Assembly (NCBI GenBank): GCA_946480785.1
Contig: CAMLLD010000022.1
Span: 1-64,000, forward strand
Direction of reading: 5' to 3'
Length of the DNA: 64,000 bases
Origin: an uncultured Blastocatellia bacterium
Lineage (GTDB): Bacteria > Acidobacteriota > Blastocatellia > Pyrinomonadales > Pyrinomonadaceae
A model generated the notes under the pieces. That model was not told where the DNA came from. It made no database searches and was given only the letters and a program-made list of their open reading frames with translations. A program made the position numbers and the translations under genes. Position 1 is the first letter of the stretch; every line of letters starts with the position of its first letter. Positions 9,894-58,872 of the stretch are shown here, piece by piece.

Positions 9894-9971
9894 CCGCCAC
9901 AAAGAAGCACAAAAAAGCACAAAAGATCTCTGGCAGGATCTCTTGTGCTTTTTTGTGCTTCTTTGTGGCGG
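9894..9971. repeat. Long inverted repeat with CACAAA-type arms
   Basis: Arms of 35 nt (9894-9928 and 9937-9971) are complementary except for one mismatch and enclose an 8-nt loop. Within each arm the motif AGCACAAA recurs in direct repetition. The element sits just 3' of the oxidoreductase gene on the minus strand and could act as a terminator or mRNA end stabiliser. The repeat-within-palindrome structure also resembles a dispersed intergenic element, and a related degenerate copy is present near 13928-14009. Confidence 0.85.
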
Positions 9972-54830: not shown

Positions 54831-55502
54831 CTACTGCTTCCGTACCGCTACCCACTTACCCGACAACTGTCCAGCGTAATCAAACTCGCCCGCCAGTTTA
54901 CCGTCGACGACGGTGGCGCTCATCGAGATCGTGCCGTTCTGTCCTTCGAGTTGAAACACGAGCTTGCCGTCTTTCCACGAGCCGTCTTTGATGGTGCTTT
55001 CGCCGAGTTGCGAACTGCTGCCGCCCGTGACTTTCTCGCCGTCGACCTTCAGCGTCAACGCAAACGGAAACGGTTGACCGTTCGCGTCAGCCACGGCGTC
55101 CCACTCACCGCTGAGATTAACGGGCGCAGCGGCAGTCGCAGGAGTTGCAGCCGCAGCAACTCGTTTCAATTCGATCGGTGACTTTTCCGCTCCCGCGATC
55201 CAGTTGCCCGTAATCGTGGCGCCGTCAGTCTTGCCGTCTATTTTGGCGTCTTTGCCAAAGTTAAGTTGAAGAGTCCCCTCAGCATTAACTGCGGCTCCCG
55301 TGAGCTCGTAAGCCTTTTCGCCGTTCTTCAGCCGGCCCTCGATCTTGCCGTTGTTCTTTCGGATCTCGAGAGCAACAGGTTGGCCCTTCATCGTTCCCTC
55401 GTAGTTGCCGGCAATGTCGGTGGACTGAGCGGCAGGCGTCGCTTGGGCAAAACCAACGGTTGCTCCGAGCAACAACGTGAGTAGCAGTGTAATCAGTTTC
55501 AC
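54831..55502 (-). CDS. Secreted beta-rich protein, unknown
   Basis: This 223-residue protein has a signal peptide ([21 protein letters not shown]) and two similar beta-rich units of about 80 residues (around [25 protein letters not shown] and [28 protein letters not shown]). This suggests an internal duplication of a small beta-barrel or lipocalin-like domain. The function is unknown. It interrupts the conserved rplT-pheS order and is oriented with the operon, so it could be co-transcribed with translation genes although it is exported. Confidence 0.82.
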
Positions 55503-55532: not shown

Positions 55533-55913
55533 CTAAGCCGCTTTGTTGCGCTGCTCGTTTTCGAGCGCGCCTTTCGCTTGCGCGACGACTTCGGCAAACG
55601 ATTCCGGCTCATGCACCGCGAGATCCGCGAGCACTTTCCGATCGAGCTCGATGCTCGCCAGTTTCAAACCATGCATCAGTTGCGAGTAGTTCAAACCATT
55701 CAGACGCGCCGCCGCGCCGATGCGCACGATCCACAGACTACGGAAATCACGCTTCTTCAACTTCCGTCCGGTGTAAGCGAAATTCAACCCGCGCTCGACC
55801 GACTCTTTCGCCGAGCGATACAACTTCGACTTCGTGCCGCGATAGCCTTTCGCTAACTTAAGAATCTTCTTGCGCCGTTCGAGACGCTTGTTACCACGTT
55901 TTGCCCTGGGCAT
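55533..55913 (-). CDS. rplT: 50S ribosomal protein L20
   Basis: This 126-residue L20 protein is preceded by a GAAAGGGG site. The N-terminus [21 protein letters not shown] and the later [16 protein letters not shown] segment are characteristic. L20 is essential for early 50S assembly and in some bacteria represses its own operon through a leader RNA. The long palindrome at 55933-56016 lies just upstream, between rpmI and rplT. Confidence 0.96.
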
Positions 55914-55932: not shown

Positions 55933-56016
55933 TTTGGAGTGCGGCGACCTGGCGCCGCTTTGGTCCCGCTCATGCGCAATCGAGGTGAAAGCGGCGTCAA
56001 GCCGCCGCACTCCAAA
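55933..56016. repeat. Long inverted repeat in the rpmI-rplT spacer
   Basis: Arms of 29 nt (55933-55961 and 55988-56016), identical at 26 positions in inverted orientation, begin TTTGGAGTGCGGCG and contain a nested CGCCGC palindrome. The 26-nt loop is unpaired. It looks like a dispersed GC-rich palindrome inserted in a ribosomal operon. It would form a hairpin in the mRNA just before rplT. Confidence 0.85.
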
Positions 56017-56044: not shown

Positions 56045-56248
56045 TTAATCGCGGCCGTACGGCAGCATATTCATCACGCGTTCGTGGTCCGCCGGCGCAA
56101 CCAACACGTCGATGTCCAGGTGGCGCTTCCGCTTATTCGTCTTCTTCGTCAATATGTGGCGGGCGTGCGAGTGGCCTCGTTTGACCTTTCCGCTCGCCGT
56201 CAGCCGAAAGCGCTTGGCGGCGCCTTTGTGTGTTTTTAGTTTTGGCAT
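56045..56248 (-). CDS. rpmI: 50S ribosomal protein L35
   Basis: This 67-residue L35 protein starts [20 protein letters not shown] and contains the [20 protein letters not shown] segment. It follows infC by 12 bp and is followed by the long spacer palindrome and rplT. The order infC-rpmI-rplT is universal in bacteria. Confidence 0.96.
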
Positions 56249-56260
56249 AGTTCCATTCCT

Positions 56261-56869
56261 TTATGCGTTGTTCTGCGGCGACGCGGGATGCGATTCCTTC
56301 CCGCCGCCGCTCTTGTGTCTCTTCGGTCCGAGGATGATGAACATCTGGTTCCCTTCCATCTTCGGCCTTGCCTCGACCTCACCGACGTCCGCCAGATCGT
56401 GTTCGAGCCGCTCACGAATGCGCGCGCCCAACTCACGGTGCGTCATCTCGCGTCCGCGAAACCAGATCGTGGCCTTTACTTTGTCGCCCTCCTGCAACCA
56501 CTCGCGCGCATGTTTCATGCGGTAGTCGTAATCGTGGTCGTCAGTGCCGGGGCGAAACTTAACTTCCTTAACGGTGATCGTGACCTGCTTCTTCTTGGCC
56601 TCGTTTGCCTTCTTCTTCGCTTCGTACTGGTATTTTCCGAAGTCGATGATCCGGCAAACGGGCGGATCGGCGTTGGGAGCAACTTCGACCAGGTCCAGCC
56701 CTTTTTCGCGGGCTGCACGAACGGCATCGCGCACGTCCATGACGCCCAACTGCTCTCCTTCCTCGCCAATCACGCGCACTTCAGGTACGCGAATTCTTTC
56801 ATTAATTCGGACCGGCGGCAGGCGCCGGTTATCAGGACGCTGTCCGCGACCACGAAAGCCTGTAGCTAT
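56261..56869 (-). CDS. infC: Translation initiation factor IF-3 with AUA start
   Basis: This 202-residue IF-3 begins at ATA 56869. No in-frame ATG, GTG or TTG occurs before GTG 56779, which would cut off the conserved N-terminal [18 protein letters not shown] region. CAGGAGG at 56877-56883 lies exactly 7 nt upstream of ATA, and the ATA shares two bases with the thrS stop (ATAG). E. coli infC uses AUU, a rare start that IF-3 itself discriminates against, giving autoregulation. The two IF-3 domains are intact ([11 protein letters not shown] linker, then [13 protein letters not shown]). Confidence 0.92.
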
Positions 56870-58872
56870 TGCTGCACCTCCTGGGTTTGATTGTTATTAG
56901 TCAACGCGCGCGTCTCAACAAACTTGCGCGCCATTTCCCTGAACTCTGCGAGCGACATTACACCGATGTCGCCTTGCGCTCGCTCACGCACCGCTACGTT
57001 TCCCTGCTCCATCTCGCGATCGCCGAGCACGAGCATGAACGGCACCTTTTGCAACTGCGCGTCACGAATCTTGGCTCCGATTTTTTCGCTTCGCAAATTA
57101 ACGTCAACTCTGAAGCCGGCGTCGCGTAGTTCGCGCGTCACGTCCTCGGCGTAGCCGTTGATTCGATCCGTGATCGGGAGCACCGCGACCTGCACCGGCG
57201 CGAGCCACATTGGAAACGCGCCTGCGTAGTGCTCTATTAGCACGCCGAAGAAACGTTCCATCGAACCAAACAATGCGCGGTGGATCATTACCGGGCGATG
57301 CGGTTTGTTGTCTTCGCCGATGTACTCGAGTTGAAAACGCTCGGGCAAGTTGAAATCGAACTGTACCGTCGTCAACTGCCACGTACGGCCGATCGCGTCT
57401 TCCACACGAATGTCGATCTTCGGGCCGTAAAAAACTGCTTCGCCTTCGATCCGTTGATAAGGAATCTGCTTCGCGTTCAGCGCCTCGACGAGGGCAGATT
57501 CAGCCCACGCCCACTGCTCGTCGGAACCGAGATAGTGAGCATCCGGATCGTCGCCGCGCACGGACAGTTCAACCTTGATGTCCTTGAAGCCGAAGACTTC
57601 ATACATGTTGAAGGCGAAGTCGATGCAAGCAAGAATCTCCGCGTGCACGTTTTCCGGCGTGCAGAAGATGTGCGCGTCGTCCTGCGTGAAGCCGCGCACG
57701 CGCGTCAGACCGTGCAACGTGCCGGAAAGCTCCGCGCGATAGACCGTGCCCAGCTCCGCGTAACGCAGCGGCAGGTCGCGATACGAACGCTGCGCCGACT
57801 TGTAAATGCCGATGTGAAACGGGCAGTTCATCGGCTTGATGCGAAACTCCTGCCCTTCAAACTCCATCGGCGAGAACATCGAATCGGCGTAGTTGCCTTC
57901 GTGACCACTCGTGAACCAGAGGTCGCGTTTCGCGATGTGTGGCGTGAACACGAGACCGTAACCACGTCGCAGGAGCTGCTCGCGCAGGTAGTCTTCCATC
58001 TCCTTGCGAATGGCGCCGCCCTTCGGGTGCCAGAAGATCAGTCCCTGGCCGTACTCTTCCTGAATCGAGAACAGATCGAGCTCGCGTCCCAATCGTCTGT
58101 GGTCGCGCTTCTCTGCTTCTTCACGTTGCTTCAACCACGCGTCGAGCTCTTCCTGCGTAAAGAAAGCCGTGCCGTAGATGCGCTGCATCTGCGGTTGCGA
58201 CGCGTCGCCTTTCCAGTAAGCGCCGGCAAGCGAAAGCAGTTTGAACGCGCGCAGCTTGTTCGTGCTCGGCACGTGTGGGCCGAGACAGAAGTCGATGAAC
58301 GGCGAGCCTTCGATGTAGTAGACACTCACCACGTCGCCGGCCTTCTCGTCGATCAGTTCACACTTCAACGGCTCGTCGCGCTCGTTGAAGATGCGCAACG
58401 CTTCCGGCTTGGCGATCTCGTCGCGACGATAGACCAGGTTCTTGCTCGCGATCTGCTTCATCCGTTTCTCGATGACGGGCAGATCCGCTTCCGTCAAAGG
58501 CCGCGGCGTGATCACGTCGTAGAAGAAACCGTAACGCGGATCGTCGAGCAGGGCTGGACCGATGCCGAGTTTGGCGCCCGGAAAGAGATCGAGTACGGCG
58601 GCGGCGAGCAGGTGCGCGGTCGAGTGACGCAGCACTTCGAGACCGTCGCGCGTCTCGGGCACGATCGGTTCGATTTGCACGGCTCCGTTATCGCTCGGGA
58701 GGGTATCGAGTGGGGCGGTGAGATCGACCTCACGGCCCTTCACTTTGGCGGCCAGTGCTTGTTTAGCCAGGTCGCGATCGAGCTTTTTGAGAGCTTCCGC
58801 CACCGTGGCCGAATCCGGCACGGAGACGGGTGCGCCGTCTTTGAGTTGTACGTTGATCTCGCTCATTTCCAA
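56866..58872 (-). CDS. thrS: Threonine-tRNA ligase
   Basis: This 668-residue ThrRS has an N-terminal TGS domain, the SAD editing domain ([17 protein letters not shown], later [20 protein letters not shown]), and the class II catalytic core. The zinc-site segment [14 protein letters not shown] and [12 protein letters not shown] motifs are followed by motif 3 and an anticodon-binding domain. It charges tRNA-Thr and edits Ser-tRNA-Thr. Its stop overlaps the infC start. A folded leader of about 230 nt precedes it. Confidence 0.96.

Follow-up and report, generated by a model that had tools for sequence, protein, structure and literature searches.

Comparative evidence for an AUA start codon of infC overlapping the thrS stop in an uncultured member of the Pyrinomonadaceae

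At which codon does translation of infC begin in an uncultured Blastocatellia bacterium of the family Pyrinomonadaceae, and what might the choice of that codon mean for the synthesis of initiation factor IF3? The question is raised by a stretch of 64,000 nucleotides (the window) in which thrS, infC, rpmI and rplT follow one another in this order (Table 1). The infC product is identified as IF3 by matches to PF05198 and PF00707 and to the equivalog model TIGR00168 (242 bits). On the minus strand its frame is open from CAA 56893 to the TAA at 56263-56261, and in the window sequence no ATG, GTG or TTG is found in this frame between the upstream TAA (56896-56894) and GTG 56779, i.e., this GTG is the first canonical codon, as an earlier note on this DNA had stated. 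Between the same TAA and the conserved RINERI motif there are only two start-like codons, ATA 56869-56867 and one CTG, and it is the ATA that has a Shine-Dalgarno (SD) sequence in front of it. The minus strand reads ...CCCAGGAGGTGCAGCAATAGCTACAGGC... here, and the SD, AGGAGGTG, was confirmed at 56882-56875, with a distance of 7 nt from GGAGG to the ATA, just as the note had described. It makes an 8-bp match to the anti-SD, CACCUCCU, with a duplex energy of -12.9 kcal/mol at spacing 7. The 16S rRNA 3' end GGCTGGATCACCTCCTT was recovered in the genomes of 2 of 11 relatives, the other nine giving no match.

Table 1. Features of the thrS-infC-rpmI-rplT locus, in window coordinates.
Feature	Positions	Strand	Basis or remark
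thrS, threonyl-tRNA synthetase	56866..58872	-	PF00587, PF03129, PF07973, PF02824
TAA closing the infC frame upstream	56894..56896	-	sequence reading
Last 8 thrS codons (NQTQEVQQ), reaching into the infC SD	56869..56892	-	thrS stops of neighbours lie earlier
SD of infC, AGGAGGTG	56875..56882	-	sequence; duplex energy; 16S end in relatives
ATA start codon of infC	56867..56869	-	sequence reading; ATA, ATC or ATT picked in 105 of 106 family genes
ATAG shared by infC start and thrS stop	56866..56869	-	among placeable family loci, common only to L001/L081 and L002/L083
infC, translation initiation factor IF3	56261..56869	-	202 codons from ATA plus stop TAA 56263-56261
GTG, first canonical in-frame codon; internal Val, not the start	56777..56779	-	GTG/GTT/GTA/GTC = 56/23/18/10 in 107 rows
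rpmI (L35), control gene	56045..56248	-	ATG start
rplT (L20), control gene	55533..55913	-	ATG start

We compared infC starts within the family and beyond it by a single rule. The candidates were all in-frame ATG, GTG, TTG, CTG, ATA, ATT and ATC codons from the upstream stop down to the conserved motif; of these we took the codon whose SD duplex was best, provided that the duplex reached -5 kcal/mol or better at a spacing of 3–10. As a positive control, the rule was applied to infC of E. coli K-12 and returned its annotated AUU start. The best 80 of 269 loci from an initial genome scan for IF3 were taken, the nearest among them (93 percent identity) belonging to a Pyrinomonadaceae MAG. A family-wide search covered 119 genomes, assigned to the Pyrinomonadaceae from record titles, 109 of them with an IF3 match, and 106 genes were analysed; outside this count stand G005 (carrying L033, with ATC), G064 (L035 by its coordinates, also ATC) and G071 (a C-terminal piece only). 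From a phylum sample of 396 genomes, 381 with a match, we analysed 63 Acidobacteriota loci outside the family, which came from the better-scoring rows and are a non-random draw. Four further samples of 31 genomes each were built around one Zixiibacteriota, one Chloroflexota, one Pseudomonadota and one Chlorobiota/Bacteroidota genome and bear the group names of these central loci; 31, 30, 31 and 31 genomes gave matches and 30 loci were kept per sample.

The outcome bears out the start proposed for the window. The 106 family genes gave ATC in 57 cases, ATA in 42 and ATT in six, i.e., an ATH codon (ATA, ATC or ATT) in 105; the only gene left without a pick (L124) has its frame cut by a contig end. 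Among the other Acidobacteriota (n = 63) the picks were ATC 44, ATT 14, CTG 1 and TTG 1, with three genes without a pick, and two loci, L169 and L170, carry an in-frame ATG without SD that may be their start. Similar results were obtained in the Zixiibacteriota sample (ATA 19 and ATC 9 in 28 of 30 loci, the other two having no motif anchor), the Chloroflexota sample (n = 30; ATA 12, ATC 8, ATT 5, CTG 1, none 4) and the Pseudomonadota sample (n = 30; ATC 8, ATA 8, ATT 8, GTG 1, none 5). The Bacteroidota sample (n = 30) gave ATC 4, ATT 4, ATA 1, ATG 2, TTG 1 and no pick in 18 loci, so that 21 of 30 have no supported ATH start. Bacteroidota make little use of SD sequences and the start rule is therefore weakly informative for them. 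Judged by these picks, infC normally starts at a non-AUG codon in five of the six samples. Within the family, none of the 105 genes with an ATH start has an NTG rival with an SD of -4 kcal/mol or better, and 82 of them have no NTG whatsoever from the upstream stop to the conserved motif. A stop lies within three codons upstream of the start in 16 family genes, 15 of which have no NTG before the motif. Entry from an upstream start by read-through is ruled out in the window, where no NTG occurs from TAA 56896 to the ATA, and is unlikely in the family in view of these 16 genes.

The neighboring genes rpmI and rplT were used as controls. In a comparable test, an NTG was available in all 102 rpmI and all 100 rplT family genes. 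However, the SD rule alone picked an ATH codon in 17 of 73 supported rpmI and 14 of 93 supported rplT family picks, and an SD-based pick is thus no proof by itself; the case for the ATH start of infC is carried, on the comparisons made, by the absence of NTG codons and by the onset of constraint. In the group of the window, where the ATA stands 20 codons before the motif (23 rows including the window), pN/pS was 0.86 over the eight codons before the ATA, 0.23 from the ATA to the RINERI motif and 0.14 past the motif, while the other two frames of the ATA-to-motif stretch had values of about 1.5. From before to after the start, the ratio fell from 1.69 to 0.32 in another ATA group (8 rows), from 1.02 to 0.31 in an ATC group (6 rows) and from 1.16 to 0.21 in an ATT group (5 rows), while the drop was weakest, from 0.90 to 0.60, among the 42 rows of the largest ATC group. 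Coding constraint sets in at the ATA codon. Taken with the ATH starts of the family, the SD and the absent NTG, this makes AUA 56869 the strongly supported start of infC on comparative grounds.

The third base of this codon has changed repeatedly. A quickly built IF3 tree of 163 Acidobacteriota rows, weakly supported and with long branches, requires at least 20 changes among ATA, ATC and ATT over the phylum set and at least nine counting family rows only (the CTG and TTG picks of L207 and L220 were not counted, and genes without a pick and short fragments stood outside the tree). None of the 106 family genes has a supported AUG, GUG or UUG start. If each change had been equally likely to lead to G, the chance of seeing no G in nine changes would be (2/3)^9, about 0.03 by hand calculation. 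Drift of the third base without AUG fits selection against a canonical start, with the reserve that the support of the tree is weak.

Which advantage could there be in such a start? We consider it highly probable, from the comparison and by analogy with characterized systems, that feedback of IF3 on the non-AUG start of its own gene is the best explanation of the AUA (the readings weighed here overlap, and the confidences given to them do not add up to one). The AUA would be translated by the ordinary initiator tRNA, anchored through the near-perfect extended SD match. With a mismatch between its third base and the initiator anticodon, AUA would be rejected by IF3, so that initiation at infC would decrease when IF3 is abundant and increase when it is scarce, a negative feedback like that of E. 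coli infC with its AUU, the parallel which the earlier note had drawn. The AUAG overlap with thrS may add some re-initiation, although the feedback would not need it. The comparison supports the position of the start, the conservation of AUA, AUC or AUU and the strong SD, while the use of the initiator tRNA, the rejection by the IF3 of this organism and the feedback itself are extended to it by analogy. A hand-written pattern for the initiator tRNA matched none of the genomes of 11 relatives and the initiator anticodon is therefore assumed. The features shared with the class of IF3-autoregulated infC genes are the identity of the product as IF3, an AUH start with no canonical alternative and a well-spaced SD. 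No match to a known RNA regulator near infC (the L20 leader or others) was found with Rfam between 53000 and 60500 at E values up to 1.

Well-described counterparts exist in other bacteria. The infC gene of E. coli also has thrS directly upstream (3 nt gap) and an AUH start preceded by GGAGG, but uses AUU rather than AUA, its start does not overlap the thrS stop and its SD, computed in the same way, is weaker (-7.0 kcal/mol, compared with -12.9 in the window). Autoregulation by IF3 has been reported for the ATT start of E. coli and the ATC start of Streptomyces (PMC5472188), and rejection of non-canonical starts by IF3 in E. coli (PMC2268962; PMC5472188). Like the window, Streptomyces has a non-canonical AUH start, often misannotated according to the same source (PMC5472188); it is AUC there, whereas the relatives of the window use AUC, AUA or AUU depending on the clade. 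The closest likeness in codon is Staphylococcus aureus, where the AUA start of infC, also with an extended SD, was mapped by retapamulin ribosome profiling (Ribo-Ret), an overlap with thrS not being described in the parts of that report available to us (PMC13009471). S. aureus belongs to another phylum, and its start was mapped experimentally while ours comes from comparison. By analogy with these cases, the infC AUA is most likely a known self-limiting device met again in a little-studied group.

The overlap with thrS is a different matter. The thrS gene (longest frame from TTG 58872, with an ATG at 58866) ends at the TAG 56868-56866, and its last base triplet shares the ATAG with the infC start, as the earlier note had observed; that part stands, but the overlap, which the note linked to a possible coupling, is not conserved. 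Five of the 106 family genes lacked either a thrS end or a pick, which left 101 loci, and ten with a distance under -40 were taken as failures in finding the thrS end and dropped. Among the 91 placeable family members kept, two have the -4 overlap besides the window, 61 have spacings of 40–200 nt, 26 of 0–39 nt and one above 200 nt; another (L157) has a distance of -11 and a doubtful start. In the neighbouring loci L003, L004, L006, L007, L008 and L012, thrS ends with RALTNN and a stop, or similarly, followed by 71–90 nt and GGAGGTGCAGCAATAGC; L006 ends precisely at RALTNN, where the thrS of the window reads on through the SD of infC. Most simply, the overlap would derive from the loss of a spacer of about 70–90 nt before a start that was already AUA, a direction that is taken from the neighbouring loci without a tree. 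The AUAG would then be a recent local change, a derived feature of the small clade of the window. Elsewhere, -4 overlaps were found in L266 and L274 (one of the samples from other phyla) and L331 (another of them), all with ATA and reading ATAA, as expected, since an AUC or AUU start leaves no room for a stop shared in this way.

Could the clade of the window translate infC mainly by re-initiation after thrS at the AUAG, thereby tying the amounts of ThrRS and IF3? We regard this as possible but rather doubtful. It has the exact -4 overlap of the window, L001/L081 and L002/L083 in its favour, together with the fact that AUA is the only AUH codon able to share a stop in this way (the ATA of L266, L274 and L331 included), the gap of 3 nt between thrS and infC in E. 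coli, and the report that excess IF3 lowers re-initiation in E. coli about threefold, less so with an SD (PMC2268962). The 4-nt overlap of co-directed genes also resembles the ATGA and TGATG overlaps of termination-reinitiation (PMC6728339), although here the overlap involves an AUA start and is limited to a small clade. Against coupling, the overlap is kept in just two of 91 relatives while 61 have spacers of 40–200 nt, and the 8-bp SD of infC suggests independent initiation. Neither is there a consistent fold hiding the infC site: structure masking the start was discarded, the fold of the window being ordinary (z +0.05) and that of L001 at -0.93, with L002 alone low (-2.31). The locus has the stop/start overlap of a coupled thrS-infC pair and lacks its retention in relatives. 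With the very strong SD that infC itself possesses, coupling is no more than a possibility, outside any family-wide design. A more specific version, in which the AUAG is an IF3-gated re-initiation site where ribosomes leaving thrS pass to infC only when IF3 is scarce, appears unlikely to us. If true, loss of the hairpin spacer would have made a free-standing autoregulated start also read the translation of thrS, and the AUAA of L266, L274 and L331 would be convergent. In any case, the clade with members with and without spacer offers a natural pair on AUA as a re-initiation start.

The spacers have peculiarities of their own. Of the 61 thrS-infC spacers of 40–200 nt, 51 fold at z below -2 (median -5.2; 60 shuffles each). 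They are often long near-perfect hairpins made of tandem units of about 7 nt (L082-L130 and others, e.g., L122, L114 and L096), and a 7-nt period is seen in their 5' halves, with identities of 0.49 at lag 7 and 0.44 at lag 14, compared to 0.16–0.31 at other lags from 3 to 13. Unit types include GTTTCGA, CCAAAGT, GATGCTA and GGTCAGT; the sequence varies by species and the position is kept. Heptameric repeats are known in bacteria (PMC4692102), and intergenic repeats have been described in Nostoc (PMC2408588). The infC-rpmI and rpmI-rplT spacers fold similarly, in a less marked way, and in the window a hairpin with 29-nt arms (TTTGGAGTGCGGCG... / ...CCGCACTCCAAA) lies between rpmI and rplT (55933-56016). 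Two other long inverted repeats are found at 9894-9971 (35-nt arms, 97 percent complementary) and 87-148 (24-nt arms, 96 percent complementary). In the interval from rplT to pheS, which in E. coli holds nothing but the pheM leader peptide, the window contains a frame of 223 aa (54831-55502) with a GTG start and a signal-peptide-like N-terminus.

A simpler reading of the AUA is that of a weak start which sets a low output of IF3 without any regulation by the factor. Reporters of three other S. aureus genes with AUA or AUU gave about 10 percent of their AUG versions in poor medium (PMC13009471), which speaks for such a reading. However, a weaker SD or a GUG or UUG start would be simpler means to the same end, and yet the SD of infC is the strongest of the three genes (median among supported family picks -11.2 kcal/mol, against -6.2 for rpmI and -7.0 for rplT) and the family has no supported GUG or UUG start. 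Considering also the reported rejection of non-canonical starts by E. coli IF3 (PMC2268962; PMC5472188), we find it improbable that weakness alone accounts for the AUA.

To a start of IF3 at the internal GTG 56779, with the stretch upstream untranslated, we give almost no credence. In its favour, the GTG is the first in-frame NTG, and 39 of the 120 database relatives listed have an annotated start that lies downstream of the ATH position. Against it, the stretch that it would leave out is constrained before the motif (pN/pS 0.23), the Val codon is GTG in 56 of 107 rows, and the IF3_N match, which sets in at residue 30 of the open frame, would lose its first 10 residues; the varying Val codon and the truncated domain rule it out. 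The TIGR00168 match likewise starts at model position 5 in the long form and at 16 in the GTG form. The earlier note had named relatives starting at the equivalent of this GTG as evidence against the AUA; the relatives do not bear this out, since the other 51 rows have a different Val codon there. Its description of the N-terminal IF3 motif as lying entirely upstream of the GTG has to be corrected, as only ten residues precede it and the GTG encodes a Val of the motif.

Among the 120 nearest database proteins listed (P0002-P0121), there are 79 (76 by script and three by eye) whose N-terminus lies upstream of the inferred start, a share favoured by the query, which bore eight residues upstream of that start and so favours long relatives. 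Apart from the 39 that begin downstream, two (e.g., P0085) have as their first residue an M exactly at the AUH position, which may be an AUG or a translated AUH. This is a practical annotation fault, public IF3 N-termini in this group mostly missing the inferred start.

We found no literature joining infC, Acidobacteri* and start codon, nor, among the titles listed, a survey of infC starts in Pyrinomonadaceae, in searches that left subscription papers largely outside. The comparative evidence would extend the textbook device of IF3 feedback to the Pyrinomonadaceae, a family in which the third base of the infC start appears to drift among A, C and U, with no supported canonical start in 106 genes.
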